Positions 11,179 through 43,159 of a DNA stretch of 59,865 bases are shown in pieces (positions within the stretch are counted from its first letter, which is position 1; every line of letters starts with the position of its first letter). The DNA lies in contig JAICJG010000003.1 of the NCBI GenBank assembly GCA_025928585.1, forward strand, positions 1-59,865. Direction: 5' to 3'. The stretch is from Rhodanobacteraceae bacterium (GTDB taxonomy: Bacteria; Pseudomonadota; Gammaproteobacteria; Xanthomonadales; Rhodanobacteraceae). The position numbers and the translations under genes were made by a program. Below the pieces are notes generated by a model. That model was not told where the DNA came from. It saw only the letters and a program-made list of their open reading frames with translations, and made no database searches.

Positions 11179-11394
11179 TCAGCCCACGACCAACCGCAAC
11201 CGCGCGACGCGCCGACGCTCCCGGTAGCGCTGGGCCTCCAGGTCTTCGAGGACCACGTCCCATGCGTCCGGCCCCAGCCACGATGGCCTCAGGCTTTCCA
11301 GTGCATCGAGCCCCTCCGGGTCACCAACGTGCCGCAGGCGCGCCAACTGCCCCAGCACGCGCTCGATTTGTGCAGCGTCGATACCGACATCCAT
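11179..11394 (-). CDS. Small hypothetical protein (71 aa)
   Basis: A 71-codon frame starts at an ATG preceded by a well-placed GGCGGAG ribosome site. The product is acidic in the middle and basic at the C-terminus (RYRERRRVARLRL), with heptad-like Leu spacing suggesting helices. No family was recognised. It lies alone between cca and a glutathione S-transferase remnant. Its codon choice looks like that of neighbouring genes, which is the main support for calling it real. Confidence 0.5.
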   Translation of the reverse strand: MDVGIDAAQIERVLGQLARLRHVGDPEGLDALESLRPSWLGPDAWDVVLEDLEAQRYRERRRVARLRLVVG

Positions 11395-11589
11395 CGCAGT
11401 CTCCGCCCTGCTGCTCGTGAGTCACCACGGAAAATACGATGCAACAGTCGTGCCAGCGCCCCGTTTTGGGCGCCGGTAACGCCGCCGTGCGGGCGGCCAA
11501 GGGGCCGAAACCGGCAAAGGATCCGTGCTGCTGCCGGCGCGAGGTCCCGCGGCGCGGCGCGCGATGGGGCGGGCGCCCCGGCCGGACCC

Positions 11590-27075: not shown

Positions 27076-28011
27076 ATGGACAGGCGCGTCCACCTCCGGA
27101 TTCTCGACACCGACGGCAGCATCGACGTTGATGCGCTCACCGCCGCGACTCCATGCGCGTCGGTGACGCGCGTCGACCTGCGCGATCTCGCGCCCGCGCT
27201 GCGACTGTGGAGCCGCGCCAGAAACATCGCTGACGCGCGCGCGCGGATCGCCGCTGCGGGCGACCCGCGCCCCTCGGTCACGTTCCTCGGGTCGGGCGAT
27301 TTCCACCACCTCGCGGCGTTGCTGATCGAGCGGGTCGAGGAATGCTTCACGGTGCTGCATTTCGACAATCATCCGGACTGGGTGCGCTTCGCGCCGCGCT
27401 GGCACTGCGGGTCCTGGGTGAACCGCGTGCTCGCACTCCCCAACGTGCAGCGGGTGGTGACGGTCGGCCCGTGCAGCGATGACCTCGCCAGCCCCGGCCG
27501 CAAGGGCGGCAACCTGCGGGCGCTGGATTCCGGGCGGCTGGCACTGCTTCCGTGGCAACATGCGCCGTCGCGGGTGCGGCGCCGCATCGCCGACGGGCCG
27601 GGCCATACCTGGCGCGACGGCCGAATCGTCTGGCGAAACCTCGGCGAAAGGCAATTGGAGGATGCTGCCGTCCTGATGGTGGAGGCGATCCCGACCAATG
27701 CGGTCTGGGTTACCATCGACAAGGACGTCTTGCCGGAAGCTGAGGCGCTGACCAACTGGGATCAGGGCAGGATGCCGGTGGCGGTCCTGACCGCAATGCT
27801 GCGCGTGGTCGGGCAGCGCAAGCGGATTCTCGGAGCGGACGTTTGCGGCGAATATTCCCCGCCGCACCATGCCAACTGGTTGAAGCGGATCGAAGCGCGC
27901 CTGGACCAACCGACACGTGCCGCAACCGACCGGCGAAGAATCGAAGACAACGTTCGTACCGACTGCGAGATTGCGCGGGTGCTGTTCGATGCCTGCGCGA
28001 ACCCCACATGA
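27076..28011 (+). CDS. Arginase/ureohydrolase-fold protein
   Basis: The 311-residue protein has the layout of ureohydrolases (arginase, agmatinase, formimidoglutamase), which cleave guanidino or formimino compounds with two Mn2+ ions. The metal motifs are recognisable but divergent: SGDFHH (His77/78) for GGDH, FDNHPD (Asp97, His99, Asp101) for DAHxD, and TIDKD (Asp215, Asp217) for SxDxDxxDP with the last Asp replaced. Catalysis is therefore plausible but the substrate is unlikely to be plain arginine. It is the first gene of a coupled operon; its stop overlaps the next start (ATGA). It could supply an amine or ureido head group. Confidence 0.78.
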   Translation: MDRRVHLRILDTDGSIDVDALTAATPCASVTRVDLRDLAPALRLWSRARNIADARARIAAAGDPRPSVTFLGSGDFHHLAALLIERVEECFTVLHFDNHPDWVRFAPRWHCGSWVNRVLALPNVQRVVTVGPCSDDLASPGRKGGNLRALDSGRLALLPWQHAPSRVRRRIADGPGHTWRDGRIVWRNLGERQLEDAAVLMVEAIPTNAVWVTIDKDVLPEAEALTNWDQGRMPVAVLTAMLRVVGQRKRILGADVCGEYSPPHHANWLKRIEARLDQPTRAATDRRRIEDNVRTDCEIARVLFDACANPT

Positions 28012-28385
28012 CCGTCACCCTCGTCACCTTCGCGCTGCTGCTCGGCTCCGTCGCCTGCGACGTGGCCGGCCAGGTGTGCTTCAAGCTCGGCGTCGGCCAC
28101 GCCATCCCGGGGGCCAGCAGCGGGCCATCGCTCGTCCACAAGGTGCTGCACTCGCCCTGGATCGCGCTGGGCGTCGCGGTGTACGCGCTGGAATTCGTGC
28201 TGTGGTTCGCGGCGCTGTCGCGCACCGAGTTGAGCAACGCGTTTCCGTTCACGGCGCTCGGCTACGTCGGGGTGGTGCTGGCCAGCCGCCACATCCTGAA
28301 CGAGCGCATTTCGCTGCGCCGCTGGGCCGGGATCGGAACCATCGTGGCCGGGGTCGTACTGGTGACCGGGCAGCAGCTCGGTTGA
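28008..28385 (+). CDS. Small multidrug resistance/EamA-type membrane protein (first of two)
   Basis: The 125-residue protein has four predicted membrane helices and resembles single-domain DMT/SMR proteins such as ArnE/ArnF rather than drug exporters: SLRRWAGIGTIVAGVVLV near the end and ALSRTELSNAFPFTALGYV in helix 3. Single-domain SMR proteins work as dimers. A second, longer SMR protein is encoded four genes away in the same operon, which suggests a heterodimer that moves a lipid-linked product across the inner membrane. This function is inferred. Confidence 0.75.
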   Translation: MTVTLVTFALLLGSVACDVAGQVCFKLGVGHAIPGASSGPSLVHKVLHSPWIALGVAVYALEFVLWFAALSRTELSNAFPFTALGYVGVVLASRHILNERISLRRWAGIGTIVAGVVLVTGQQLG

Positions 28386-28411
28386 ATGCATCAGGCTAGG
28401 CAGGGGCGACC

Positions 28412-29287
28412 ATGACCCAATCGATGATCAAACAGGCGGATTTCCTGCTGCGCGGCGGACGCGCGGGGGTGCTGCTGATCCACGGCCTCACCGGCACGCC
28501 GGCCGAAATGCGCTTCGTGGGCAAGGGGCTCAACCGCGCCGGCTTCACCGTGTACGGCATGCAGCTAGCCGGCCACTGCGGCAGCGAGGCCGACCTCCTG
28601 AAAACCGGCTGGCGCGACTGGACCACGAGCGTGCGCGCCGCGGCCGACCGCCTGCGGCGCGATGTCGACCACGTGTTCGTCGGGGGCCTGTCGATGGGCT
28701 CGGTGCTGGCCCTGAACCTCGCGATCGAAGCACCCCGCTGGGTGGACGGGCTGGGGCTTTACGGCAGCACCTTCTTCTACGACGGCTGGACCATTCCGCG
28801 GCTGGCGCGGTTGTCGTTCCTGCTGCCGCTGGTGTGCGGCATGGGCCTGTTCCGGCAGCGCAACTTCATGGAAAGCTTTCCCTACGGCATCAAGGATGAG
28901 CGCATTCGCGCGCGCATCGCGGGGGCGATGCTGGACGGCCAGAGCGAGGCCGCGGGCCTGCCCGGCAATCCATGGCCCTCGCTCGCGGAATTCCACAAGC
29001 TTGCGTGGCGCGTGCGCGCACGCCTGCACGAGGTGCGCGCACCCTGCCTCATCATGCACGCGGCGGACGACGACATTGCCAGTGTCCGCAATGCGCGTCT
29101 GATCGAACGCCGCGTCAGCGCTCCCACCGAAACGGTGCTGTTGAACGACAGCTACCACATGATCACGGTCGACGGCGAACGCGACAAGGTGATTGCCCGC
29201 TCCGCCGACTTCTTCACCCGCATTCTCGCCAACAGCCCGCTGCGCGTGCCGCGCCCGCCGCTCGTTGCGGCCGCCTCGACTGCATGA
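28412..29287 (+). CDS. Alpha/beta hydrolase, carboxylesterase/thioesterase-like
   Basis: The 291-residue protein has the alpha/beta hydrolase fold. LIHGLTGTPAEMRFVGKGL forms the oxyanion region, GLSMGS carries the nucleophile (Ser94), an Asp in HAADDDIAS and His249 in YHMITVD complete the triad. It resembles Est30-type carboxylesterases and monoacylglycerol lipases. In an operon with ACP and ketoacyl synthase genes it may release or edit an acyl product. Its stop overlaps the start of the next gene (ATGA). Confidence 0.82.
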   Translation: MTQSMIKQADFLLRGGRAGVLLIHGLTGTPAEMRFVGKGLNRAGFTVYGMQLAGHCGSEADLLKTGWRDWTTSVRAAADRLRRDVDHVFVGGLSMGSVLALNLAIEAPRWVDGLGLYGSTFFYDGWTIPRLARLSFLLPLVCGMGLFRQRNFMESFPYGIKDERIRARIAGAMLDGQSEAAGLPGNPWPSLAEFHKLAWRVRARLHEVRAPCLIMHAADDDIASVRNARLIERRVSAPTETVLLNDSYHMITVDGERDKVIARSADFFTRILANSPLRVPRPPLVAAASTA

Positions 29288-30414
29288 CCGAAACGGTAGC
29301 GCACGCTTCCATCGACGCCATCGCGGCGGAAGACTGGAACCGGCTGTTTCCCGACGAACTCGAGGACCACGGGTACCTGCGCGCGGTCGAGCGCGCCGGC
29401 CTGCGCGGCTTCCGCTACCTCTATTTCGCGGTGCACGAGGAGGGCGGCCGGCTGCTCGCGGCGGTGCCTGCGTTCGTCACCGACTACCGGCTCGATACCA
29501 CCGTGCAGGGCGGCCTGCGCCGGATCACCGGTGCCCTCGCGCGGGTTTTTCCGCGGTTGCTGCGGATCCCGATGCTGGCGCTCGGTTCGCCGGTCACCGA
29601 ACGCTGCCGGGTCGGATTCGCTCCCGGCGTCGCGCCCGGGCAGCGCGAAGCGTGGCTGGACGCGATCCTCGCACGGATGGAAGAGGTCGCGGCGAACGAC
29701 AGGCTCGGGATGCTGGCGGTCAAGGACGCGGCGCTCGCGGATCCCTGGTGGCAGCACGCCTGCACCCGCCACGGCCTGCGTCCGCTGCCCGGGCTGCCGG
29801 GCGCGACGCTCGCGATCCGCTGGGGCGATCTGGAAGGCTACCTGGCGTCGCTCGGCCCGTCCATCCGCAAGGACCTGCGCAGGAAGCGCCGGCACGCCGC
29901 GGCGTTGCGCATCGAGTGGCGCACCGCCCTCGACGGCATCGCCGACGACGTCCAGCGGCTGTATCGCGAAACCCTTGCGCGAGCGGAGTTTTCGTTCGAG
30001 GAGCTGACCCCCGCCTATTTCGAAAACGTGCTGCGCTACCTGCCCGGCCGCGCATATTGCGTGACCTACCAGGAAGGCGATCGGCTGCTCGCGTTCAACC
30101 TGGTGCTGCGCGATTCCGGGCGCCTGCTGGACAAGTTCCTGGGCATGGACCATGCGGCGACGGATCACTACAACTTCTACCATGTGAGCTGGCTGGAAAA
30201 CGTCCGTTGCTGCATCGACGAGGGGATCGGCGTGTACGAGAGCGGCCAGGGGCTGCATCGCGAGAAGGTGCGACTCGGCAGCACGCTGCAATCCAACGCG
30301 CTGTGGTATCGCCACCGCAACCGGTTCGTGGACGGCGTGCTCGCGCGGCTGGAAAGACTCGCGCGGCTCGACCGGCGCGACGACCCGCAGTCCGCCACGC
30401 CGGCGCGGAGCTAA
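29284..30414 (+). CDS. FemAB/GNAT-like acyltransferase (PF04339-type)
   Basis: The 376-residue protein resembles the peptidogalycan biosynthesis group (FemAB-like, GNAT superfamily). It has a basic SIRKDLRRKRRHA region at about 190-205, an FSFEEL/YFENVL segment and a C-terminal YESGQGLHREKVRLG block where the family has its G-Q-G-x-HK-type motif. Such enzymes use acyl-ACP, acyl-CoA or aminoacyl-tRNA to acylate amines. Next to an ACP and a ketoacyl synthase, N-acylation of an amine from acyl-ACP is the most economical reading, but unproven. It is translationally coupled to the hydrolase. Confidence 0.72.
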   Translation: MTETVAHASIDAIAAEDWNRLFPDELEDHGYLRAVERAGLRGFRYLYFAVHEEGGRLLAAVPAFVTDYRLDTTVQGGLRRITGALARVFPRLLRIPMLALGSPVTERCRVGFAPGVAPGQREAWLDAILARMEEVAANDRLGMLAVKDAALADPWWQHACTRHGLRPLPGLPGATLAIRWGDLEGYLASLGPSIRKDLRRKRRHAAALRIEWRTALDGIADDVQRLYRETLARAEFSFEELTPAYFENVLRYLPGRAYCVTYQEGDRLLAFNLVLRDSGRLLDKFLGMDHAATDHYNFYHVSWLENVRCCIDEGIGVYESGQGLHREKVRLGSTLQSNALWYRHRNRFVDGVLARLERLARLDRRDDPQSATPARS

Positions 30415-30418
30415 GGAA

Positions 30419-30868
30419 ATGCTCAGCATGCGCGCACACACTCCACGCTGGCGCCGCTGGATGCCACTGGTCATTGCCTGGGCGATCCTGCTCGCCGTCG
30501 AAACGCTGGGCCAGATCGCGCTGAAGATGGCGGGTGCCAGGGTCGGCGCGTTCGAACTTGATGGGCCGTCGATCCATGCCGCGCTTTCCACGCCGTGGCT
30601 GTGGGTGGGACTCGCGTGCTACCTCGGCCAGTTCGCGGTGTGGATGGCCATCCTCGAGCGCTCGTCCCTTTCAGCGGCCTTTCCGACCAGCGCCATCGCG
30701 TTCGTCGCGATCATGTTCGCGTCCTGGGCGGTGTTCGGCGAGCCGATGGGATGGCAGAAGATCGCGGGCTCGGTGATCATCGTCGCTGGTATCCTGCTGC
30801 TCGGCGGCGACGCACAAAACAACCCGCCCATGCCACCGAGCCACGACGCCGAAGGAAGCCCGCCATGA
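30419..30868 (+). CDS. SMR/EamA-type membrane protein (second of two)
   Basis: The 149-residue protein has four predicted membrane helices and an Arg-rich N-terminus (RAHTPRWRRW). Helix 1 contains ETLGQIALKMAG, matching the Glu-containing first helix of SMR transporters. AFPTSAIAFVAIMFASW and GWQKIAGSVIIVAGILLLGG match the last helices. The C-terminal tail is Pro/Asn rich. It probably partners the protein at 28008 as an asymmetric pair, like ArnE-ArnF. The stop overlaps the ACP start (ATGA). Confidence 0.75.
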   Translation: MLSMRAHTPRWRRWMPLVIAWAILLAVETLGQIALKMAGARVGAFELDGPSIHAALSTPWLWVGLACYLGQFAVWMAILERSSLSAAFPTSAIAFVAIMFASWAVFGEPMGWQKIAGSVIIVAGILLLGGDAQNNPPMPPSHDAEGSPP

Positions 30869-31149
30869 CCGACGATGTCCAGAAGACCGTGTTTTCGATC
30901 ATCGCCCGGGAAGCCGGTATCGAGGAAAGCAGGGTCACCCTCGACTCGACCCTCAAGGACCTCGAGATTCCCTCGCTCGATGCCATCCAGATCATCTTCG
31001 AGATCGAGGATCACTACAAGATCCAGATGCCCGACCGCGATCCCAGCTTCGACACCGAATCGGTGAAGGGCCTGGTCGAGACCGTCGAGAAACTGCTGGC
31101 CGAGAAAGCCGCCAATCCGCCGCCGCCTGCCACTCCTCCCGCTGCCTGA
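30865..31149 (+). CDS. Dedicated acyl carrier protein
   Basis: The 94-residue acidic protein has the four-helix ACP pattern. The phosphopantetheine site is Ser37 in EIPSLDAI; the residue before Ser is Pro where most ACPs have Asp (DSL), so this is a specialised carrier rather than AcpP. The C-terminus ends in a Pro/Ala tail absent from AcpP. It lies 12 bp before a ketoacyl-ACP synthase, a pairing like NodF-NodE, which makes special acyl chains for a secreted product. Confidence 0.82.
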   Translation: MTDDVQKTVFSIIAREAGIEESRVTLDSTLKDLEIPSLDAIQIIFEIEDHYKIQMPDRDPSFDTESVKGLVETVEKLLAEKAANPPPPATPPAA

Positions 31150-31161
31150 CCTTCTTCCGCC

Positions 31162-32379
31162 ATGAACCGCCGTGTCGTCATCACCGGTGTCGGCGCGATC
31201 TGCGCGCTCGGCCACGACGCGGCCGCGGTGTGGCAGGGCATGCGCGAGGGACGAAGCGCCATCGCGCCGCTCACCGGTTTCGAGGCCGAGGAGATGCGGG
31301 TGCGGGTCGCCGCACAGGTGCGCGGCCATGATCCCGCGCGACATTTCGATCCGAAGAAACTGGTCCTGCTCGACCGGGTCACCCAGTTCGCGCTGATCGC
31401 CGCGCGCGAGGCCGTCGCCCAGGCCGGGCTCGATTTCCGCGCGGGCGACCTCGGCCGCCGGACGGCCTGCGTGATCGGCACCGGCACCGGCGGCGAGGAA
31501 ACCGTCGACGAATGTTCGCGGCGTCTCTACCGCGACAACAATCCGCGGCTGCATCCGCTCTCGATCGTGCGGCGGATGGTGAACGCACCGGCCTCGCAGG
31601 CTTCGATCGAATTCGGGATCACCGGCCCGGCCTTCTGCGTCTCCTCGGCCTGCGCGACCTCCAACCATGCGTTCGCGCAGGCGCTCGCGCTGGTACGCGC
31701 GGGCACGGCCGACGTCGCGCTCGCCGGCGGCACCGAGGCCTGCCTCACCCTCGGCGTGCTGCGCGCGTGGGAGGCGATGCGGGTCCTCGCGGATGACACC
31801 TGCCGCCCGTTCTCCAGGCAGCGGCGCGGGCTGGTGCTGGGCGAAGGCGCGGGCATCCTGGTGCTCGAGGAGTTCGACCACGCCCGTGCACGCGGCGCGG
31901 AAATCCTGGCCGAATTCGCCGGCGCGGGCATGAGCGCCGACGCCGGCGACATCGTGCTGCCATCCGCCGCCGGCGCCGCACAGGCGATTTCCGCCGCCCT
32001 CGCCGACGCCGGTCTGAATCCGGAGGACGTAGACTATGTCAACGCACACGGAACCGCGACGGCCGCCAACGACCCGACCGAAACCAGAGCAATTCATCTG
32101 GCGCTCGGCGGCCACGCGAAACGGGTCGCGGTGTCCTCCACCAAATCGATGCACGGGCACGCGCTCGGGGCCGCGGGTGCGCTGGAAATCGTTGCGGCGC
32201 TCGGCGCCCTGCGCGAGGGCGTGATTCCGCCCACCGCGAATTTCCTCGATGCCGACCCCGAATGCGACCTCGACTACGTTCCGAACGCCGCACGCGAACG
32301 CGAAGTGCGCGGGGTGCTTTCGAACGCCTTCGCGTTTGGGGGCTTGAATGCCGTCGTGGCGCTCAGGCGCGCGCCATAA
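31162..32379 (+). CDS. Beta-ketoacyl-ACP synthase, KAS II/NodE-like
   Basis: The 405-residue condensing enzyme has the Cys-His-His triad: Cys164 in SSACATSN, His296 in AHGTATAAND and His331 in KSMHGHALGAAG, with GGTEA before and FAFGGLNA at the end. It would extend an acyl chain on the neighbouring ACP with malonyl units. No ketoreductase, dehydratase or enoyl reductase is present, so it must borrow housekeeping FAS enzymes or add only one extension. It is the last gene of the operon. Confidence 0.9.
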   Translation: MNRRVVITGVGAICALGHDAAAVWQGMREGRSAIAPLTGFEAEEMRVRVAAQVRGHDPARHFDPKKLVLLDRVTQFALIAAREAVAQAGLDFRAGDLGRRTACVIGTGTGGEETVDECSRRLYRDNNPRLHPLSIVRRMVNAPASQASIEFGITGPAFCVSSACATSNHAFAQALALVRAGTADVALAGGTEACLTLGVLRAWEAMRVLADDTCRPFSRQRRGLVLGEGAGILVLEEFDHARARGAEILAEFAGAGMSADAGDIVLPSAAGAAQAISAALADAGLNPEDVDYVNAHGTATAANDPTETRAIHLALGGHAKRVAVSSTKSMHGHALGAAGALEIVAALGALREGVIPPTANFLDADPECDLDYVPNAAREREVRGVLSNAFAFGGLNAVVALRRAP

Positions 32380-33527: not shown

Positions 33528-34010
33528 TCAGCTCGGATTGCCGCTCGCCGGCGGGAAGCCCTGCAACGGCACCAGCGACATCAGTTTGCCCATGTCGAGG
33601 TACTGCAGCAGCGAGCTCATTCCGCGCGCGACCTGCGGTTCGGTGACGAGGCCGGTGACGGCCCAGCGGCCCCAGGCCCCGAACGCCGTCTCTACGGCGC
33701 CCGGACCGTCGAACATCAAGGCTTCCTGCACCGGCTGGCGGCACGACTTCACCAGCAGATCGGTGACCAGGGCGCCGGCCCTGCGGTTGATCGCATCCCG
33801 CTGCGCCGGGGTGATCGAAGCCAGCGGCGCAATGTCGGGGTCGAGCGACATGGTGGCGAATGCCCAGCGCAGCGCAATCCTGCGATCATCCGGCGTGGTC
33901 GCGCCGACCAGACACTTCGACAGCGCGTCCGCATAAGTGCCCGCGCGCGCAAACGCGGGCCACGCACAGGTCATGATCGGCAACACCAGCAGCAGGCAGA
34001 TACGTCGCAT
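33528..34010 (-). CDS. Small exported hypothetical protein
   Basis: The 160-residue protein has a clear signal peptide (hydrophobic LLLVLPIMTCAWPAFA, cleavage after Ala). The mature part is helical and contains two Cys residues (KCLVG and KSCRQ) that could form a disulfide. No family was recognised. It lies between cysK and pheA, 54 bp from the pheA stop, so it may be co-transcribed with pheA. Function unknown. Confidence 0.7.
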   Translation of the reverse strand: MRRICLLLVLPIMTCAWPAFARAGTYADALSKCLVGATTPDDRRIALRWAFATMSLDPDIAPLASITPAQRDAINRRAGALVTDLLVKSCRQPVQEALMFDGPGAVETAFGAWGRWAVTGLVTEPQVARGMSSLLQYLDMGKLMSLVPLQGFPPASGNPS

Positions 34011-35376: not shown

Positions 35377-36762
35377 TCAGGCGGTCCGCGCGAGATCCGC
35401 GGCAACTTCGCGGGCCGCCTCGAGCGTGGCGGCAACGTCAGCGGACGTGTGCGCGGTGGACACGAACAGGTTTTCGTAGGCTCCGGGATGGAACAGCACG
35501 CCCTTGCCGAGCATGCCTTGCCACCAGCGCCGGAACATCGTCTGGTCGGCATGCCGCTCGGCATCCCGGTAATTGCGGATCGGATTTTGCGTGAACCACA
35601 CCTGCATCAGGGGTCCGAGGCCGACCACCCGCGCCGCCAGTCGGGCGGCGCGCAGCACGTGTTCCAGTCCGAACCGCAGCTCGTTCGAGACGGCATCCAG
35701 CCGCTGGAACAGCCCCGGCGCCGCGAGTTCGTCCAGCGCCGCATTGGCCGCCGCCACCGCGATCCCGTTCGCGGTGTAGGTGCCCGCCATCGAGACCGTG
35801 CCGTCGGCGACCAGCGCCATGACGTCGCTACGCCCGGCCACCGCGGCGACCGGAAATCCGCCACCGATGCCCTTCGCGAAGACCGACAGGTCCGGGCGCA
35901 CGCCGAGGCGTCCCTGGGCACCGGAGAGGCCCAGCCGGAACCCGGTGATGACCTCGTCGAAGATGAGCACGATGCCGTGGCGATGCGTCAACTCGCGCAT
36001 CGCCTCGAGATAACCGGGTTCGGGCAGGATGCAGCCGGTATTGCACATTACGGGTTCGGTGAGCACCGCGGCGATGTCGGCGCCTTCCCGCTCGATCGTG
36101 TCGGCCAGGAGATCCGCGTCGTTCCACGGCAGGATGATGAGGTTCTGCTCGACGCCCCGCGGCAGGCCCGGGCCCTGCGGCACCGGCACCGGATGCCGAT
36201 CGGGACCGGCCTCGGCGATCTCCGGGTGCTTGCTCCAGTACACCTGATCCGAAAAGCCGTGGTACATGCCTTCGAAGCGGATGATCTTCGGCCGCCCCGT
36301 GAAGGCGCGCGCCAGGCGCGTGGCGTAGAGGACCGCCTCGGTGCCGGTGTTGCACAGGCGCACCTGGTCGACGCCCGGCACGGCATCGATGATCTTCTGC
36401 GCGAGGCGTGCCTCGTCTTCAGTGGGCAGCGCGAAGACGGTGCCGCGCTTCTGGATGAAATCGACCACCGCCTGGGTCACCCGCGGCGGGCGGTGGCCGA
36501 GGATCATGGGCCCGAGCCCGAGGAGATAATCAATGTACTCGTTGCCGTCGACATCGCGCAGGCGCGAACCCTCGCCGCTATCCACGAACAGCGGGTAGGG
36601 CGCCCAGCCGGACCAGGTCGCGCGCGCGGTACTGTTGACGCCGCCGGGGATGGAGCGGCAGGCGGCCTCGAACCGCCGCGCGCTGCCGGCGGTATCGACG
36701 CCAGGAATCAGCCGTGCATCGGCGGGACCAGTCAGGGCGGCTTCGGCTTTGGCGGCATTCAT
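35377..36762 (-). CDS. Class III aminotransferase, HemL-like
   Basis: The 461-residue PLP enzyme resembles glutamate-1-semialdehyde aminomutase and other class III aminotransferases: GGVNSTARA near the N-terminus, GNEYIDYLLGLGP, NTGTEAVLYA, FDEVITGFR, the PLP Lys in FAKGIGGG and GTYTANG. It is longer and more divergent than HemL, and it lies next to a HAD phosphatase, so a secondary role on another amino-aldehyde or keto substrate is more likely than tetrapyrrole synthesis. It sits 16 bp downstream of the phosphatase gene. Confidence 0.8.
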   Translation of the reverse strand: MNAAKAEAALTGPADARLIPGVDTAGSARRFEAACRSIPGGVNSTARATWSGWAPYPLFVDSGEGSRLRDVDGNEYIDYLLGLGPMILGHRPPRVTQAVVDFIQKRGTVFALPTEDEARLAQKIIDAVPGVDQVRLCNTGTEAVLYATRLARAFTGRPKIIRFEGMYHGFSDQVYWSKHPEIAEAGPDRHPVPVPQGPGLPRGVEQNLIILPWNDADLLADTIEREGADIAAVLTEPVMCNTGCILPEPGYLEAMRELTHRHGIVLIFDEVITGFRLGLSGAQGRLGVRPDLSVFAKGIGGGFPVAAVAGRSDVMALVADGTVSMAGTYTANGIAVAAANAALDELAAPGLFQRLDAVSNELRFGLEHVLRAARLAARVVGLGPLMQVWFTQNPIRNYRDAERHADQTMFRRWWQGMLGKGVLFHPGAYENLFVSTAHTSADVAATLEAAREVAADLARTA

Positions 36763-36778
36763 GGTTCGGCCTTCCCGG

Positions 36779-37477
36779 TCACGGAGCGATGGCGGGCACC
36801 AGCAGGCGCTGCGGCGTGTGCAACTGGCCGGCCAGCAGTGCGGGCAGCAATTCGAGCGCGTCGGCGAACCCGACGATGGGAACGTGGGGGATGCCCGCGT
36901 GCCGGCAATGTTCGAGCAGGCGGTGTTTGGCGAACACGTAATCCGCCTCGCCCGCCGCGCAGAAATCCGAGGCCCCGTCTCCGATCAGGAGCACGCGGTG
37001 ATGGCGGTTGTGCTCGCGCACCGCGCTCGCGCACTTGCAATGGCCGCTTCCGATCCGGCAATCCGGATCGGAGAATGGCGTCTCCAGCCGCCAGCTGCGC
37101 GGGCCCGCTTGTACCAGCCGGTTGGCGAGCAGCGGCAGGCCATCGAGCCGGTGGCGCGCAAGGATCGAGCGGATCGCGTAGTCGATCCCGTCACTGACCA
37201 CCCGCAGCGTGACACCGGCCGCGTGCACCGCCTGCACGAACATCGGAAACGCCGAGTCGATGCGCATCTCCGCGAGGTGCCGGTCGAGGTCCTCGCGCGA
37301 AGCATCGATCAACGCAACCTGCCCCGCCATGCACTCGGCGGATCCGATCTGGCCGGCTCGCCAGTCGCGCTCCAGCACTTGCCAGTCGGGGTGGGCAAAA
37401 CGTTCCAGCAGGGAGTCGGTGACGTCCTCGATGGCGATGGTGCCATCGAAGTCACACAGGATGTTCCATTGGTCCAC
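36779..37477 (-). CDS. MtnX-like HAD-IB phosphatase
   Basis: The 232-residue protein is a haloacid dehalogenase phosphatase: CDFDGTIA has the nucleophile Asp, RVVSDGIDYAI is motif II and IGDGASDFCAA is motif IV. Cys/His residues around SGHCKCASA occur in MtnX-like members. A GTG start (VDQWNIL) was chosen, five residues before the first strand; no ATG is close. It is the first gene of a two-gene unit with the aminotransferase, suggesting that the two act on one phosphorylated substrate. Confidence 0.8.
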   Translation of the reverse strand: MDQWNILCDFDGTIAIEDVTDSLLERFAHPDWQVLERDWRAGQIGSAECMAGQVALIDASREDLDRHLAEMRIDSAFPMFVQAVHAAGVTLRVVSDGIDYAIRSILARHRLDGLPLLANRLVQAGPRSWRLETPFSDPDCRIGSGHCKCASAVREHNRHHRVLLIGDGASDFCAAGEADYVFAKHRLLEHCRHAGIPHVPIVGFADALELLPALLAGQLHTPQRLLVPAIAP

Positions 37478-37619
37478 GGATGGTGCTCGGGAGACGGGGC
37501 GGCCGCAAACTGGGACGCATGCTAGCACCGGGCGGCTTTCGAATTGCTTTCCGGCGACTTGTCGCAGCAAGGCTGGGGATCAAGGCGGCCTTCCCTGCCT
37601 GTTTTTTCCATCCGAACCG

Positions 37620-38522
37620 CTACCGGCCGTGCCCCGGCAAACGCACCAGCACGCGCTGGCCGATCCTGAGCGGCGGCACCTCCCCGGGTGCCAGCGCGAG
37701 CGTGCAGTCGACTTCATTGGCGAGCGCACGCGTCAACGGGTCCTGGCTGAAGCTCGCCGATTGCAGGACCTGCCCCACCCACAGAACCTTGGCGTGGTAG
37801 ACCGGTCCGTCGCCCGAATCGCGCACGACTTCGGCCCGCAGGCCCGGCTGGATGGCGCCGGCGACATCCGCATCCACCTGCGCGCGCACGATGTGCGGGC
37901 GGTCCGGCAGCAGCTCGAACAAGGGCTGCCCGGACGCGGCGGCGACCGCTTGGCCCAGGGCGACGTGCCGGGCGACCACCGTGCCCGCGACCGGTGCGCG
38001 CACGCTGGTGCCGTCCAACTGCAGTTGCGCGGCGGCAAGCTGCTGTCGCGCCGCATCGAGCGAGGCCTTCGCGGCTCTCCGCTTGGCCTCGAGCGAGGCC
38101 ACGGCATCGCGTGCCTGGCCGGCGGATTCGCCGGTCGCGGCCCCGGCCTTGGCCGCCGCGGCGACCCGCGGCGCGCGCCAGCGGGCCTGCTCCAGGTCCA
38201 CCTGCAATTCGTCGAGTTGCGCCTCGGCCTGTTCGATGCCCGCCTTCGCGGTGGCGACCCGGATCCTCGCCCCGCGCGGATCGAGCCGCGCCAGCACCTG
38301 TCCGACCTTCACCGTGTCACCCGGCTTGACTGCGACCGACTCGACGATGCCGTCGCTGCGTGCGGACACCTGAACCATGCCGCCTTCGACGTCCACCGTG
38401 CCGCGCGCGACCGCGAGCCACTGCGAGCCTGGCGCGCCATCGCTCGCGGAGTGTTCGCCGCCGGCCGAACATGCACCCAGCACCAGCGCCAGCATGGCAA
38501 GCACGGGCCCCATCCAGCGCAT
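37620..38522 (-). CDS. Membrane fusion (HlyD/DevB-like) adaptor lipoprotein
   Basis: The 300-residue periplasmic adaptor has a lipobox (LVLGAC) after the signal peptide, a biotinyl-lipoyl domain split around an alpha-helical hairpin (GIVESVAVKPGDTVKVGQVL and SVRAPVAGTVVARHV), and a beta-barrel domain. It would link the inner-membrane ABC transporter to the outer-membrane channel of the same cluster. It lies 150 bp downstream of the ATPase gene and may also have its own promoter. Confidence 0.85.
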   Translation of the reverse strand: MRWMGPVLAMLALVLGACSAGGEHSASDGAPGSQWLAVARGTVDVEGGMVQVSARSDGIVESVAVKPGDTVKVGQVLARLDPRGARIRVATAKAGIEQAEAQLDELQVDLEQARWRAPRVAAAAKAGAATGESAGQARDAVASLEAKRRAAKASLDAARQQLAAAQLQLDGTSVRAPVAGTVVARHVALGQAVAAASGQPLFELLPDRPHIVRAQVDADVAGAIQPGLRAEVVRDSGDGPVYHAKVLWVGQVLQSASFSQDPLTRALANEVDCTLALAPGEVPPLRIGQRVLVRLPGHGR

Positions 38523-38672
38523 TGTTTTCAAGACAGGCCCTCCTTCCGGGTCCGATCGTTGCGCGGCAGCATGCGGCGGCCACGGGGCCTGTTCGCGCTT
38601 AGCCAAATCGACATGCATCCACCTCGCTCTTTCTTGTCGCGCACGCATGGGACCTGCGGCGCGGCCACTCGG

Positions 38673-39356
38673 TTACGCGTGAACAGGCCCAAGTATCGCG
38701 CCGTCTTCCATCTGCAGCACGCGGTCGGCGTGCGTCACGAGCCGCGGGTCGTGGCTGACGCACAGCACCGTGGTGCCGTGTTCGTGCGCGATCCGGCGCA
38801 GCGTATCGATCACGATCTGGCCGTTCGCGGCATCCAGCGCGCTGGTGGGTTCGTCCGCGAACAGCAATTGCGGCTGCTTCACCAGCGCGCGCGCGATCGC
38901 AACCCGCTGTTTCTCGCCGCCGGACAATTCCGCGGGCAGCAGGTGCATGCGCCCGGCGAGGCCGACTTCTTCCAGCGCGGCGCACCCGCGCTCCCTGGCC
39001 GCGGCATCGGCAACACCCATGTAGCCCAACGGCAGCATCACCTGTTCGAGCGCGGTCAGTGCGGGAAACAGGTTGAAGCCCTGGAACACGAAGCCGGTGT
39101 GCTGCAGGCGAAAGCGGTCGAGCGTGTGCCGGTCGCCCCGAAACAGGTCCTCGCCCAACGCGACCACGCTGCCGGCATCGGGGCGTTGCAGGCCCGAAAG
39201 GATCGACAGCAGCGTGCTCTTGCCGCAACCCGAGGGCCCGGCGATCAGGGTCAACTGCCCCGCGTCCACGGCCAGCGACAGTCCGCGCAGGATTTCCGTG
39301 CGCAGCTTGCCGCTGGTGTAACCCATGTGGATGTCGCTGGCCACCAGCGCGCTCAC
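38673..39356 (-). CDS. ABC transporter ATPase (LolD/MacB/DevA-like)
   Basis: The 227-residue ATPase has Walker A GPSGCGKST, the Q loop FQGFNLFP, the signature LSGGEKQR, Walker B LLFADEPTSALD and an H loop SHDPR. This pattern is typical of the FtsE/LolD/MacB/DevA group that works with four-helix FtsX-type permeases. A GTG start overlapping the permease stop (GTGA) gives a complete N-terminus; no ATG is better placed. Confidence 0.9.
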   Translation of the reverse strand: MSALVASDIHMGYTSGKLRTEILRGLSLAVDAGQLTLIAGPSGCGKSTLLSILSGLQRPDAGSVVALGEDLFRGDRHTLDRFRLQHTGFVFQGFNLFPALTALEQVMLPLGYMGVADAAARERGCAALEEVGLAGRMHLLPAELSGGEKQRVAIARALVKQPQLLFADEPTSALDAANGQIVIDTLRRIAHEHGTTVLCVSHDPRLVTHADRVLQMEDGAILGPVHA

Positions 39357-40477
39357 CGCAGCAGCAACGCCGGGTCGGCATGGCGCAGCGCGCGCACCGC
39401 CGCGATGCCGGAAACCAGCGCGATCCCCATCACCAGGGCCGCGCACACCAGCCATGCCGGCACGTTGAGCTGCACCGGTACGTCCTGGGTCCTGGCCAAC
39501 GCGATCAACCCGAAGCTCAGCACGGCACCCGCGACGAGTCCCCCTACCCCGATCCACGCGGCCTGCTCCAGCACCACCCGGCGCAGCGAACCCAGGCTGA
39601 CACCGAGTGCGTGCAGGGTCGCGTATTCGCGCACCGAGCCTGCGATCGCCCCCATCAACGTCTGGCTGGTGATGATTGCGCCAACGATGAATACCACCAC
39701 CGCGAGGAACACCACGCCGAGGCCGGCGCCGGTCTGGAACATCCAGTAGAGGATCGCGCGCCGCGCGAAACTCGATGCCGTCCAGGCGGCGTAGCCGTGG
39801 GCATCCGCATTGATCCGCGCGGCCACCGCGGCGGCGTCCGCGCCGGGCTTCAGCTTGGCGACGTAGTACGCGACCTCGCTGCCGCCGGTGTCGTTGTCCA
39901 ACGCACGCGCGGTGTCCAGCGAGGCGACCACGTTCACGCCACCGAGCGCGCGGATGCCGCTGGCGACCCCGGCGATCCGCACCAGTTGCCCGTTGATGAG
40001 CGCGCGGCCGCCGATCGGAACCCCCAGCTTGGGCAGGTCGGCGCGGTCGACGATCACCGCGAACGGCTCGCGCAACGCGGCGCGCTGCGCCGCGGTCAGC
40101 ACATCGGAGAAGATCATCCCCTCGGGCCGCGGGCTGATGCCGGAGACGAACACCGACACGCCGCCGGTGCCCGCCGGTCCGCGCCAGTCGCCGTCGATCC
40201 ACGCGAACGGCTCGACCCGCGCCACGCCCGGGTCCATCAGCAGCGCGGTGCGTGCGCGCGGCGTGATGGGGCGGCCGAGCTCGATGCTCTGGGTGCCGGG
40301 ATAGCCGACCCACAGGTCGGCATCGGAGGCCGTGATGTAGACCGCCGTGGCACCGAAGATCCCGAACACCAGCGCGGCCTGCATCAGCAACAGCAAGCCG
40401 GAGAACGCGACCGCCAGCACCGCCGGCAGGAAGCGCCGCCATTCGTGGACGAGGGTCTTGCGCGCGAGCGGGATCAT
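39353..40477 (-). CDS. ABC transporter permease, FtsX/DevC-like
   Basis: The 374-residue protein has one N-terminal and three C-terminal membrane helices with a large periplasmic domain between (about 45-250), the MacB/DevC topology. The C-terminal GSVREYATLHALGVS segment is the coupling region of FtsX-fold permeases. Start and stop overlap the OMP stop and the ATPase start, so the three genes are translationally coupled. With the adaptor and OMP it forms a tripartite exporter of unknown cargo. Confidence 0.88.
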   Translation of the reverse strand: MIPLARKTLVHEWRRFLPAVLAVAFSGLLLLMQAALVFGIFGATAVYITASDADLWVGYPGTQSIELGRPITPRARTALLMDPGVARVEPFAWIDGDWRGPAGTGGVSVFVSGISPRPEGMIFSDVLTAAQRAALREPFAVIVDRADLPKLGVPIGGRALINGQLVRIAGVASGIRALGGVNVVASLDTARALDNDTGGSEVAYYVAKLKPGADAAAVAARINADAHGYAAWTASSFARRAILYWMFQTGAGLGVVFLAVVVFIVGAIITSQTLMGAIAGSVREYATLHALGVSLGSLRRVVLEQAAWIGVGGLVAGAVLSFGLIALARTQDVPVQLNVPAWLVCAALVMGIALVSGIAAVRALRHADPALLLR

Positions 40478-42054
40478 GGTTGAACCGTCTGCTGCGCATT
40501 TCCCTTCTTCCCGCGGGAGAGGGGCAGGGGTGAGGGTACAGGTTTTGCGGGAACCGTACCCTCGTCCGGTCCTTCGGTCCGCCTTTCCCCGAAGGGAGAA
40601 GAAAAACCATTGCCTCCTTGCTTCCTGGCAGACGAATCGTTGCTTTGCTTCTCACCACGATCGTCGTCTTTGGGCAACGGCGCCCCGCCCAACGCCTTGT
40701 ACAACGCCACGTAGGCGAGGCCGTGCGCGAGCCGCGCCTGCTCCCGGTCGAGCTCAGCTTCGGTGAACGCGAGCCGCGCGTCGGCCAGATCCATCGCGTC
40801 CGCCTGCCCCAGGCCCTGCAATCGCTCGCGCGCCTGCAAGCCGCGGCGCGATGCCGCCGCCGCGGCATCCGCGTGGCGCGCGCGCTCCCCGGAAGCGTGC
40901 AGCGCCGCGAGATCGGTTTCGACTTCGGCGGCGCCCTCCAGCACCGCCTGTCGGTACGCAAGCAGCGCCGCCTGCAACTGATCGTCACGAGCGTCACGGA
41001 CCGCGCGCCGCCGGCCCCAGTCGAACAACGGGATGTTGACGATCGGGCCGATCGCGAAGGTGTTGTTGACGTCGCCGAGCTGGGTCTGGCCCTTCACCAG
41101 CGCGGCGAATGTGAGCGAACTGCCCAGCGCGAGCTGCGGGTAGAGGTCGGCTTCGGCGATGCCGAGTTCGCCCGCGGCCTTCAGCACCTGCGTCTCCGCG
41201 TAGCGGATTTCGGGGCGCGTGTGCAACAGCGCGGCGGGGACCGCCAGGATCTTGCCGGGCGCCACTCTCGGCAGCGGCTGCGGCTGCAGCCACGCCGAAT
41301 CGGGTTCGCTCTTCCCGAGCAGCAGCGCCAGCGCTTGTGCGTGCTGCACGATCGCGGCGTGCGGATCGGCGAGCTGTCCCTCGGCCTTGGCCGCCGCGGC
41401 TTCGCCCTGCGCGACTTCGGCTCGCGAGGCTAGCTGCAGGCGCTGGCGCACGCGCAGCAGATCGACCTTTTGTTGCGCGGCCTCGGCGGCGGCCTCGAGC
41501 AGGCCTGCGCTTCGCTGCGCCGCCCGCAGCTGCAGGAATTCGCGCACCACTTCCGCCACCAGGGAAACGCGCGCCGACTGCAATTCCGCCTGTGCCGCGC
41601 CGGCCTCCGCCGCGGCAACGTGGCCACTGGCATCGCGGCGGCCGAACAATCCCAGCTCCCAGGTGGCGTCGAACCCCGCCTGGAAGAAACTCGCGGTATT
41701 TTCGGGATTCGGCTCCTCGATGGTGTTGAACGCGAGTTGCGGCTTGAAGGCTGCCGCCGATGCCGCTTCCAGGGCACGTGCCGCGCGCAGCTTCCAGGCC
41801 GCCTGCTGCACGCCGAGGTTGCCATGCAGGGCCTGTTCGACCAGCGCGTTCAGTTGCGGATCGTGAAAATGCGTCCACCACCCGGTGAGATCCGGTTTCG
41901 CACCGAGCCCGGGCGCGTTGCGCCAGTGCGCGGGCAAATCGCCGCCCGGCAATTTCGGCACCTCGACGCTCGCGCAGCCGCCGAGCACGACGCACAAGGC
42001 CGCCGAAAAAAACAACGGCGCGCAGGACCGGCGGATTTGCGGGGCGGAAGCCAT
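40474..42054 (-). CDS. Outer-membrane efflux lipoprotein, NodT/OprM family
   Basis: The 526-residue protein is a TolC-like outer-membrane channel: lipobox VLGGCAS, a first W-W-FHDPQLNALVEQAL block and two OEP repeats with long coiled helices, including RPEIRYAETQVLKAAGELGIAEADLYPQLAL and PLFDWGRRRAVRDARDDQLQ. The family fold ends near KALGGAPLP. About 60 further residues, rich in Ser, Pro, Gly and charge, follow; part of them is encoded by a palindromic repeat. Its stop overlaps the permease start, so coupling survived that addition. Confidence 0.88.
   Translation of the reverse strand: MASAPQIRRSCAPLFFSAALCVVLGGCASVEVPKLPGGDLPAHWRNAPGLGAKPDLTGWWTHFHDPQLNALVEQALHGNLGVQQAAWKLRAARALEAASAAAFKPQLAFNTIEEPNPENTASFFQAGFDATWELGLFGRRDASGHVAAAEAGAAQAELQSARVSLVAEVVREFLQLRAAQRSAGLLEAAAEAAQQKVDLLRVRQRLQLASRAEVAQGEAAAAKAEGQLADPHAAIVQHAQALALLLGKSEPDSAWLQPQPLPRVAPGKILAVPAALLHTRPEIRYAETQVLKAAGELGIAEADLYPQLALGSSLTFAALVKGQTQLGDVNNTFAIGPIVNIPLFDWGRRRAVRDARDDQLQAALLAYRQAVLEGAAEVETDLAALHASGERARHADAAAAASRRGLQARERLQGLGQADAMDLADARLAFTEAELDREQARLAHGLAYVALYKALGGAPLPKDDDRGEKQSNDSSARKQGGNGFSSPFGERRTEGPDEGTVPAKPVPSPLPLSRGKKGNAQQTVQP
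40504..40601. repeat. Palindromic interspersed repeat inside the OMP gene 3' end
   Basis: Imperfect outer arms (40504-40522 and 40582-40601, CTTCTYCCC...GGGAGAAG type) enclose a perfect inner pair GAGGGTAC (40532-40539) and GTACCCTC (40556-40563). The look is that of the extragenic CCCTCTCC/GGAGAGGG palindromes common in Xanthomonads. Here it is read as protein and encodes a stretch of the OMP C-terminal tail. Confidence 0.65.
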
Positions 42055-42244
42055 GGAGGTCGGCAGTGTAGCGGCTGAACGAGACCGCACGCGCAGGGTG
42101 CGGCTGAAAGCGAATGGAAAGCAGGTGCCGTCACGCTTGCACCAGCACCCGGCCGCAACCGCGGCTTCACGCCCGCAAGCCCCCATCGCCGTACAATCAC
42201 TACGGTACCCATTCCGTCACGACGCAACCAGATTCCTCGCGTCC

Positions 42245-43159
42245 ATGAACCCCGCCCCACTCGAACGCCGCCTCGTTTTCGCCTACAGCACCTGGGACGC
42301 GCTTCCCGTCCTGATGGTGCTGGCCCATGCCGCATTCCTCGCCTGGCTGTTCTTCGGATTCCATGCGACGCCCTGGCCCGTCTGGCTTGCCTGCGCGCTG
42401 GTCTATTCGATCTCGATTTCGTGGTCGATCAACTCGACCAGCCACAACTTCATCCACAACCCGTTCTTCCGGTGGCCGTGGTTGAACCGCGCCTTCAGTT
42501 TCCTGTTCTCGCTGACCGACGGTTTCAGCCAGGAGTTCTACAAGCACGTCCACCTGCGCCATCATGTCGGCAACATGGACCGCATCGGCAAGGACGGCAC
42601 GACGATCGACCCGCTCTCGATCTATCGCCACGGCAAGGACGGCCAACCGGAGAGCGCGTGGACCTACACGTTCTACTCGTATTTCCGCGACGACATCGGG
42701 GAGTGCTACACGCGGGTCAAGAAGAAATGGCCGCATCTCGCGCGCTGGATCCGTATCGAAATCGCGACGGTGGTCATCGTCTACCTCGCCTGCCTGGTCT
42801 ACGACTGGCGCGCGTTCCTGTGCCTCGTGCCGTTCTACTACCTCGGCCACTCGCTGTCGTCGTTGAACGGCTACTACGAGCACCTGAAGGGCAATCCCGA
42901 CCAGCCGATCGCGTGGGGCGTCTCGACGTACAACAGGCTCTACAACTGGATCTGGCTCTACAACGGCTACCACGCCGAGCACCATTACCGGCCCAAGCTG
43001 CACTGGACGAAGATGGTCGGCCTGCACGATTCGATCCGCGACGAGCAGCGCGCGAAAGGCGTACACGTGATGAACTGGTGCCACGCGCTCGGCTTCATGG
43101 ACCGCTCACCACCGGCGCGCACGCGCATCGACCCTGCGGCCACAGCGCGCGTCGCCTGA
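42245..43159 (+). CDS. Membrane fatty acid desaturase family protein
   Basis: The 304-residue integral membrane protein has the three His boxes of the fatty acid desaturase/hydroxylase superfamily: HNFIHN, HLRHH and HAEHH, spaced by two pairs of hydrophobic helices. It would use a di-iron centre and O2 to desaturate or hydroxylate a lipid or carotenoid-like chain. The substrate is not determinable. It is divergent from the efflux operon and followed by a small DUF1328 gene. Confidence 0.85.
   Translation: MNPAPLERRLVFAYSTWDALPVLMVLAHAAFLAWLFFGFHATPWPVWLACALVYSISISWSINSTSHNFIHNPFFRWPWLNRAFSFLFSLTDGFSQEFYKHVHLRHHVGNMDRIGKDGTTIDPLSIYRHGKDGQPESAWTYTFYSYFRDDIGECYTRVKKKWPHLARWIRIEIATVVIVYLACLVYDWRAFLCLVPFYYLGHSLSSLNGYYEHLKGNPDQPIAWGVSTYNRLYNWIWLYNGYHAEHHYRPKLHWTKMVGLHDSIRDEQRAKGVHVMNWCHALGFMDRSPPARTRIDPAATARVA

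Follow-up and report, generated by a model that had tools for sequence, protein, structure and literature searches.

Among the known systems nearest to the locus considered here are the MprF/LpiA synthase-flippases, in which a tandem-GNAT synthase is fused to an N-terminal flippase domain and has a partner lipid hydrolase (AhyD, AcvB); the ArnE/ArnF systems, in which two small multidrug resistance (SMR) proteins are the subunits of a lipid-carrier flippase; and the OlsB-OlsA/OlsF ornithine lipid pathway. Here we describe seven genes at positions 27076-32379 of a 59,865-nucleotide stretch from a Rhodanobacteraceae bacterium (contig JAICJG010000003.1; the whole stretch is referred to as the window). 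The cluster to which they belong has the look of a system for attaching a charged amine group to a membrane lipid and flipping it outward, with an uncommon combination of enzymes for a module of that kind. Our tentative reading places the seven genes in a widespread envelope pathway for making and flipping a cationic amine lipid, in which a FemAB-like transferase adds an amino acid, probably arginine, that a ureohydrolase trims to ornithine. The locus resembles MprF/LpiA in having a tandem-GNAT synthase that is similar in fold and may be remotely related by profile, adjoined by a flippase-type partner and a hydrolase; it differs in that the synthase is a separate, soluble protein of 376 residues, outside PF09924 and without the fused flippase domain, that the flippase would be an SMR pair, and that the ureohydrolase, a haloacid dehalogenase (HAD) phosphatase and an aminotransferase have no MprF counterpart. 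With ArnE/ArnF it shares the best NCBIfam match and the opposite charge bias of its SMR proteins, whereas the arn sugar genes are absent from the seven-gene run and a DegT aminotransferase stands beside the SMR genes only in Roseomonas and in the type B loci introduced below. With the OlsB pathway it may share an ornithine-type head group in amide linkage.

All seven open reading frames lie on the forward strand, and every one that a sequence-only reading of this DNA had described was present. Three ATGA overlaps (28008-28011, 29284-29287 and 30865-30868) join them, and the remaining gaps are 26, 4 and 12 nucleotides. The unit was confirmed by the reading frames, by family matches and by frames kept in five other genomes of the genus; the window is part of a 2.73-Mb assembly of 183 contigs, and the gene caller was trained on genes including these seven, its calls not being independent proof of coding. 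The genes are as follows:

27076-28011, forward strand: arginase-like (ureohydrolase-fold) protein (arg), 311 residues; Pfam Arginase 21.6 bits, AlphaFold, Foldseek and metal-ligand residues
28008-28385, forward strand: SMR subunit 1, 125 residues; EamA 42.4 bits, ArnE 47.7 bits (cut-off 92), charge bias -3
28412-29287, forward strand: alpha/beta hydrolase, 291 residues; Hydrolase_4 69.5 bits
29284-30414, forward strand: FemAB-like tandem-GNAT transferase (fem), 376 residues; FemAB_like and Acetyltransf_6, AlphaFold pLDDT 93.6
30419-30868, forward strand: SMR subunit 2, 149 residues, start possibly at 30461; EamA 28.4 bits, ArnF 31.8 bits (cut-off 99)
30865-31149, forward strand: acyl carrier protein (ACP), 94 residues, lineage-specific; PP-binding 37.7 bits
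31162-32379, forward strand: FabF-like beta-ketoacyl-ACP synthase (KAS), 405 residues, lineage-specific; TIGR03150 441 bits (cut-off 493.75)

A second block at 35377-43159, separated from the run by cysM, an unknown gene and pheA, belongs to the same conserved set:

35377-36762, reverse strand: class-III aminotransferase, like glutamate-1-semialdehyde (GSA) aminomutase; Aminotran_3, HemL-like, below the TIGR00713 cut-off
36779-37477, reverse strand: MtnX-like HAD phosphatase; TIGR01489 89.2 bits, above cut-off, in 57 of 59 full loci
37620-38522, reverse strand: HlyD-type membrane-fusion protein of an exporter; family matches, contiguous with the seven genes in genome G007
38673-39356, reverse strand: DevA-like ABC ATPase; TIGR02982 216 bits (cut-off 295.8)
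39353-40477, reverse strand: DevC/MacB-like ABC permease; TIGR01185 88.8 bits (cut-off 290.35)
40474-41988, reverse strand: NodT/TolC-type outer-membrane channel; TIGR01845 217.5 bits, above cut-off
42245-43159, forward strand: fatty-acid desaturase; FA_desaturase 89.2 bits, in 36 of 80 named loci

A single-sequence search of 274 genomes of the class with the arginase-like protein matched the window alone, and a profile was required; it found at least 567 relatives in species-representative genomes, the closest named ones among the matches listed being metagenome-assembled genomes (MAGs) labelled Rhodanobacteraceae, Rhodanobacter or only Proteobacteria. Analysis went on with the 80 best loci, and the sample therefore leans toward the nearest relatives; a few of these named loci are the same records as loci given a G handle here, and 59 of the 80 had complete 10-kb flanks. 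In 56 of these 59, arg, fem, the hydrolase, the HAD phosphatase, the class-III aminotransferase and at least two SMR genes occurred together, the exceptions being two split-type Rhodanobacteraceae loci (L053, L054) and one locus without the aminotransferase (L061). The expected co-conservation of the gene set thus held for its core (arg, fem, hydrolase and SMR pair). The unit first proposed was real and also incomplete: the HAD phosphatase, aminotransferase, exporter and desaturase had been missed, and ACP and KAS, each present in 5 of the 80 loci, lie outside the wider core. Tight same-strand neighbours among the 80 were arg and an SMR gene in 71, HAD and aminotransferase in 59 (HAD immediately upstream) and hydrolase and fem in 54 (hydrolase immediately preceding). 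Publicly annotated plasmids of Agrobacterium fabrum and Rhizobium leguminosarum carry the gene row, and a Roseomonas plasmid carries a variant of it.

The association was also followed in 349 genomes of the phylum, with matches taken at E<=1e-10 and at most five or six candidates scored per genome. The arg profile matched 14 genomes and the fem profile 31; every one of the 14 arg-positive genomes held a strong fem match (E<1e-89), and in 13 the two genes lay on one contig within about 5.2 kb. In the remaining genome (G493) each was on a contig of its own, with fem placed right at the start of one and arg 1.4 kb away from a contig start. Together with the 56 of 59 full loci, these 13 of 14 genomes rule out a chance neighbourhood. 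Protein distances correlated with those of arg for fem (r 0.95, 63 loci), the HAD phosphatase (0.85, 46 loci) and the hydrolase (0.78, 53 loci); none of 500 permutations reached as high in any of the three cases. The correlations likewise speak against chance, and shared descent alone can account for part of them.

Identities between the window and other lineages were not uniform along the cluster. The window proteins are nearer to Pseudomonas than to type B for arg (48 versus 35%), fem (45 versus 29%) and the SMR pair (44/39 versus 33/30%), whereas the hydrolase (45 versus 63%) and the HAD phosphatase (48 versus 60%) are nearer to type B. These figures suggest a module of arg, fem and both SMR genes that travels together. 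Separately, in a Pseudomonas-type genome (G534; L219, L162) the main locus is without arg and both SMR genes, and a type B fem-arg with an SMR pair stands on another contig, a natural module swap.

The arginase-like protein models as a ureohydrolase-fold protein with its metal-ligand residues kept, in agreement with the sequence-only assignment to the arginase fold. The Pfam Arginase score of the window protein is just below the cut-off (21.6 against 22 bits), and the family matched all 39 aligned relatives at E<=0.1. The AlphaFold model (pLDDT 95) yielded ureohydrolases in all 50 Foldseek matches listed, proclavaminate amidinohydrolase first. The metal-ligand pattern H77/H78, D97-x-H99-x-D101 and D215-x-D217 is present (by sequence position, the site not being superposed), and H77, H78, D97, H99, D101, D215, D217 and a TNWDQG motif are invariant in 39 of 39 relatives. 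The protein thus shares the fold and conserved metal-ligand residues of proclavaminate amidinohydrolase, agmatinase and arginase; it differs from these known ureohydrolases in its own invariant motifs, GSGD(F/Y)HH, DNHPD and TNWDQG, and in an identity of 8-16%. The loop that we take to recognize free arginine in arginases is not apparent in it.

Fold and profile evidence for the FemAB-like protein leans toward aminoacyl transfer. Among 41 members, Pfam FemAB_like matched all 41, Acetyltransf_6 matched 35 and ATE_C matched 4 (best E 0.015). Residues R195, R200, K284 and K328 of the protein are invariant. With the AlphaFold model (pLDDT 93.6), the top Foldseek matches were the aminoacyl-tRNA-dependent peptide synthases Sbb17 and Sba18 (E 8e-13 to 4e-12), closely followed, at 2e-11 to 4e-11, by an MprF-type synthase domain, the CoA-type tandem GNAT 2wpw and FemX. 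Family profiles were then compared by hhalign in local mode, the sets for PF04377 and PF13444 being trimmed to 16 of 20 and 9 of 15 sequences; all P-values are for single comparisons. The FemAB-like profile aligned with that of the MprF synthase domain, a shallow one of six sequences from one genus, at P 9e-6 over 194 columns, and with PF04377, the C-terminal domain of arginyl-tRNA-protein transferases, at 0.0044. Unrelated folds gave 0.10, 0.11 and 0.30, and the reversed MprF profile 0.28. The 33 type A fem sequences gave 2.2e-5 against MprF and 0.24 against PF04377. PF13444, the OlsB-type family, matched none of the 41 members and nothing in the window genome, and showed no profile similarity (P 0.48), so that the classic OlsB route to ornithine lipids was ruled out. 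With the nearest folds aminoacyl-tRNA-dependent, a family-profile match to MprF and none to PF13444, the leading hypothesis is no longer acyl transfer. An exosortase-A-associated FemAB/hydrolase set was likewise discarded: an NCBIfam scan of the FemAB-like protein, TIGR03019 included, gave no match at E<=0.1, and the hydrolase scored 24.7 of the 202.75 bits required by TIGR03101.

Both SMR proteins scored best against ArnE and ArnF in NCBIfam (47.7/46.1 bits for the first, 30.9/31.8 for the second), with neither reaching the equivalog cut-offs of 92 and 99. Opposite charge bias, and with it opposite topology, was predicted by simple hydropathy in 78 of 86 SMR pairs, some of which are the same record under two identifiers; the bias was the same in 5 and zero in 3. 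In the window, SMR1 has a bias of -3 and SMR2 of +2 if translated from 30419 or -2 from 30461; the window pair is therefore opposite only if 30419 is the start. As predicted from sequence, the charge bias fits an antiparallel heterodimer, as for ArnE/ArnF. The hydrolase, which had been suspected of editing lipids, is indeed lipase-like by its nearest PDB sequences, which are monoacylglycerol lipases and Est30-type esterases.

From gene content, co-conservation, fold classes, metal-ligand residues and SMR charge bias we infer substrates, an order of steps and a product. The HAD phosphatase and the class-III aminotransferase would make an amino or amino-alcohol acceptor; the FemAB-like enzyme, resembling FemX and MprF, would join to it an amino acid, most likely arginine; and the arginase-like ureohydrolase would remove the amidino group, leaving ornithine. 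The lipase-like hydrolase, in the role of MprF's partner hydrolases, may turn the lipid over, and the antiparallel SMR pair would flip it to the outer face, like the flippase domain of MprF. In some lineages the acyl chain would be set by ACP/KAS, the desaturase or a cyclopropane synthase, and a pump of membrane-fusion protein, ABC transporter and TolC-type channel would carry the product onward. The close tie between a ureohydrolase and an aminoacyl-transferase-like enzyme suggests that they share an arginine-derived group. To our knowledge no ornithine tRNA exists; tRNA-dependent loading of arginine followed by trimming would thus give an ornithine-bearing product. A bolder and more doubtful proposal follows: ornithine lipids would be made without an ornithine tRNA by a soluble MprF-like transferase, with Arg-tRNA as donor and an amino-lipid, and a lipid-specific 'arginase', with an SMR heterodimer replacing the flippase and the split module being passed between alpha- and gammaproteobacteria. 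If true, such a route would show a tRNA-dependent enzyme leading to ornithine lipid, and would make the cluster more than a variant of modules that aminate and flip lipids.

Searches of an open-access library, from which subscription journals mostly fall out, gave no account of the cluster among the papers listed, as judged by their titles and the openings of their abstracts. In the main text of a 2024 review of bacterial aminolipids, as covered by a term search, the terms arginase, FemAB, flipp-, transport and serinol do not occur (PMC11631085). The cluster comprises about 7 to 14 genes and occurs in well-studied genera (Pseudomonas, Rhizobium, Agrobacterium and Xanthomonas); working out its product could reveal a new envelope lipid, could provide a second case of a lipid-flipping SMR pair, and functions could follow for proteins annotated as 'arginase family', 'peptidogalycan biosynthesis' and 'EamA transporter'.

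Several observations weigh against the aminoacyl reading. PF09924, the MprF synthase family, matched none of the 41 FemAB-like members at E<=0.1, and FemAB itself (PF02388) matched one; the MprF comparison, moreover, involved the shallow profile noted above. The eight type B fem sequences aligned with PF04377 (1.3e-4) and not with MprF (0.049). Alone, the window sequence gave P 0.052 against MprF; five other FemAB_like proteins gave 0.0078 to 0.16 singly and 0.0095 as a profile, so that the window sequence alone does no better than these do singly. The CoA-dependent 2wpw (E 2.1e-11) is within the first five fold matches, and N-myristoyltransferases appear lower down. For the ureohydrolase, fold similarity was moderate (TM 0.49-0.59 at 8-16% identity among the matches listed), H110 is replaced by Asn in 6 of 39 relatives (His in the other 33), and E259 by Asp in 13 (Glu in the other 26). 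In the phylum set, 17 of the 31 fem-positive genomes were without arg, eight of these with E below 1e-35, indicating that the fem family extends beyond this pathway. Finally, ACP/KAS and the desaturase point to acyl chemistry.

Distant FemAB-like genes without an arginase-like gene were seen in L156, L157, L158 and L160: beside one or two SMR genes in L157 and L158, and directly after a large kinase gene in L156 and L160. In L157, a fem-only genome, the gene stands beside argD-argF, a placement attributed to coincidence; in L158 the aminotransferase close to fem is BioA.

The points toward acyl chemistry bear on the scheme with which the sequence-only reading began, in which the FemAB-like protein is an N-acyltransferase that moves an ACP-borne acyl chain to an amine released by the arginase-like enzyme from a guanidino precursor, and in which the SMR pair flips the product. 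ACP and KAS share an operon with fem in the window, in type B loci and in Xanthomonas sacchari; a desaturase occurs in 36 and a cyclopropane synthase in 20 of the 80 loci; and the Acetyltransf_6 matches (35 of 41), the CoA-type tandem GNAT and the N-myristoyltransferases are of the kind expected of it. However, the rarity of ACP and KAS (5 of 80 loci each) rules them out as a general pathway core and leaves the transferase independent of a dedicated ACP, PF13444 is absent from the 41 members without profile similarity, and fold and profile are nearer to aminoacyl-tRNA-dependent enzymes. For the transferase, what stood of the scheme was an amide-forming fold; we regard the whole as possible, ranking close behind the aminoacyl reading.

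The ACP has the phosphopantetheine serine and an adjoining KAS, so that both features of a special ACP-KAS pair are present. Its PSLD site had been called atypical; 10 of 10 aligned relatives retain the serine, within a (P/A/Q)-S-L-(D/E) pattern, and the preceding residue is simply variable. The KAS match is full-length, with two further KAS matches in the genome. The pair resembles NodF-NodE, as a dedicated ACP and a KAS II-like enzyme adjoining an acyl-using pathway, and differs from it in being optional (5 of 80 loci).

The sequence-only reading had cast the arginase-like enzyme as the source of the amine, a role that the HAD/aminotransferase pair may fill instead. The HAD enzyme is nearest to MtnX phosphatase and next to phosphoserine phosphatase. 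In the window, Labrys, Aureimonas and Ancylobacter a paralogue of GSA aminomutase fills the aminotransferase slot, the relatives beside the cluster in the latter three being 73-78% identical to the window protein; in the Pseudomonas, Rhizobium and Bosea examples tested, the slot holds another type of class-III enzyme, whose nearest members are of the acetylornithine and racemase types. A subfamily model would name the window gene (35377-36762, reverse strand) HemL, yet it is below the HemL equivalog cut-off and is likely a paralogue misnamed in annotation; that it is the sole HemL of the cell is unlikely, since its score of 426.6 bits is exceeded by the 456.8 of another gene, a match confined to model positions 108-421. 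The HAD and aminotransferase genes are fused in one MAG of the Rhizobiales (L114:7998-9980, an open reading frame of 660 residues), the sole fusion among the 80 loci. On a Bartonella sp. HY328 plasmid (L135, 9309-12807) a trio of class-III aminotransferase, GNAT (FemAB-like) and arginase-like genes is adjoined by an O-acyltransferase gene of the membrane-bound (MBOAT) type on the other strand.

This pair invites a scheme for an aza-glycerolipid, in which the aminotransferase converts dihydroxyacetone phosphate to serinol phosphate, the HAD enzyme dephosphorylates it, the FemAB-like protein N-acylates serinol to an amide analogue of monoacylglycerol and the hydrolase edits the product. The adjacency of the two genes in 59 of 80 loci and their fusion in a MAG, the nearness of the HAD enzyme to MtnX and phosphoserine phosphatases and the monoacylglycerol lipase type of the hydrolase would all suit it, as would the dihydroxyacetone-phosphate route described for Bradyrhizobium RtxA (PMC3222319). 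Nevertheless, the scheme leaves the ureohydrolase without a role, the aminotransferase slot is filled by two unrelated class-III types and no HAD gene is listed beside the Bartonella trio; we consider it the least probable of the alternatives, and very unlikely.

The exporter genes resemble a DevBCA/MacAB-TolC-type system in that adaptor, ATPase, permease and outer-membrane channel stand in a row; compared with DevBCA they score below cut-off (DevA 216 of 295.8, DevC 88.8 of 290.35 and DevB 33.7 of 129 bits). The window genus, type B and A. fabrum have a full exporter linked to the cluster, and X. sacchari has part of one, which would accord with a soluble or secreted cationic natural product, such as an acylated di- or polyamine, exported by the SMR pair and the pump. 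Such a product would also agree with the fold matches, led for the transferase by antibiotic-pathway enzymes and for the ureohydrolase by proclavaminate amidinohydrolase, and with the patchy, module-wise spread. On the other hand, adaptor, permease and channel each occur in only 3 of the 80 named loci, the desaturase, cyclopropane synthase and lipase-like hydrolase suit a membrane lipid better, and the SMR proteins match the lipid-carrier flippase subunits ArnE/ArnF best, though far below cut-off; a natural product is therefore unlikely.

Within the genus set of 16 genomes (G000-G015), a close FemAB-like match was found in 12, namely the window itself and 11 others at 64-79% identity; it was distant (29-30%) in G006 and G013, a trace in G015 and absent from G003. 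Six genomes (G000, G004, G007, G008, G010, G012) have the complete seven-gene run, with reading frames kept in the five other than the window (segments 51-91% identical). In six more (G001, G002, G005, G009, G011, G014) the arrangement is split, arg and fem standing apart beside the desaturase; in the four of these looked at (G005, G009, G011, G014), smr1-abh-smr2-acp-kas is intact about 5-6 kb from yqeY. The hydrolase is in all 16 genomes, and G015 keeps hydrolase, ACP and KAS without SMR genes. In G007 (one record, handled as both L047 and L052) the seven genes are followed by the desaturase, NodT-type channel, DevC-like permease, DevA-like ATPase, HlyD-type adaptor, HAD phosphatase and class-III aminotransferase, a cluster of 14 genes without an intruder. 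The type B set, from other genera of the family, has ACP, KAS, FemAB-like and arginase-like genes, with a DegT aminotransferase, two SMR genes, the hydrolase and exporter genes on the other strand, some loci being incomplete; an annotated set on a Xanthomonas sacchari plasmid resembles it. MprF was absent from the window genome at E<=0.001 and present in 6 of the 16 (full run 1 of 6, split 4 of 6, type B 1 of 2, without arg/fem 0 of 2), counts too few for a conclusion on whether MprF compensates for the cluster.

Linked regulators and promoters make the trigger of the cluster testable in several genera. A -24/-12 consensus (at least 9 of 11 positions) was found in 27 of 36 testable regions upstream of arg, 40 of 63 upstream of HAD, 3 of 8 upstream of the desaturase and 2 of 51 upstream of mipA, against 1.3-2.5% in mononucleotide shuffles. 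Pseudomonas dominates these counts, to which Labrys, Bosea, Aureimonas and Ancylobacter also contribute; Rhizobium loci had no consensus upstream of HAD at this threshold. A kinase was present in 61, a sigma-54-type regulator in 62 and a MipA-family protein in 54 of the 80 loci, loose counts because the kinase and regulator families are common. In the Pseudomonas loci (L062-L092) and in L069, L093 and L098, the cluster is directly followed by a sensor kinase and a sigma-54-type response regulator, often accompanied by an outer-membrane protein of the MipA family. The pattern does not carry over to the window operon, which has no site nearby, and sigma-54 control of it is unsupported: the window holds 29 sites at two or fewer mismatches, no more than expected by chance (mean 33.1). 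The sole mismatch-free consensus in the window, TGGCACG-N4-TTGC at 11441-11455 on the reverse strand, lies just upstream of a short reverse-strand open reading frame (11179-11394). Between the two blocks of the cluster, a reverse-strand gene at 33528-34010, for which a Pfam scan gave no match, encodes a protein of 160 residues with a signal-like start; it adjoins pheA in three loci of the genus set.

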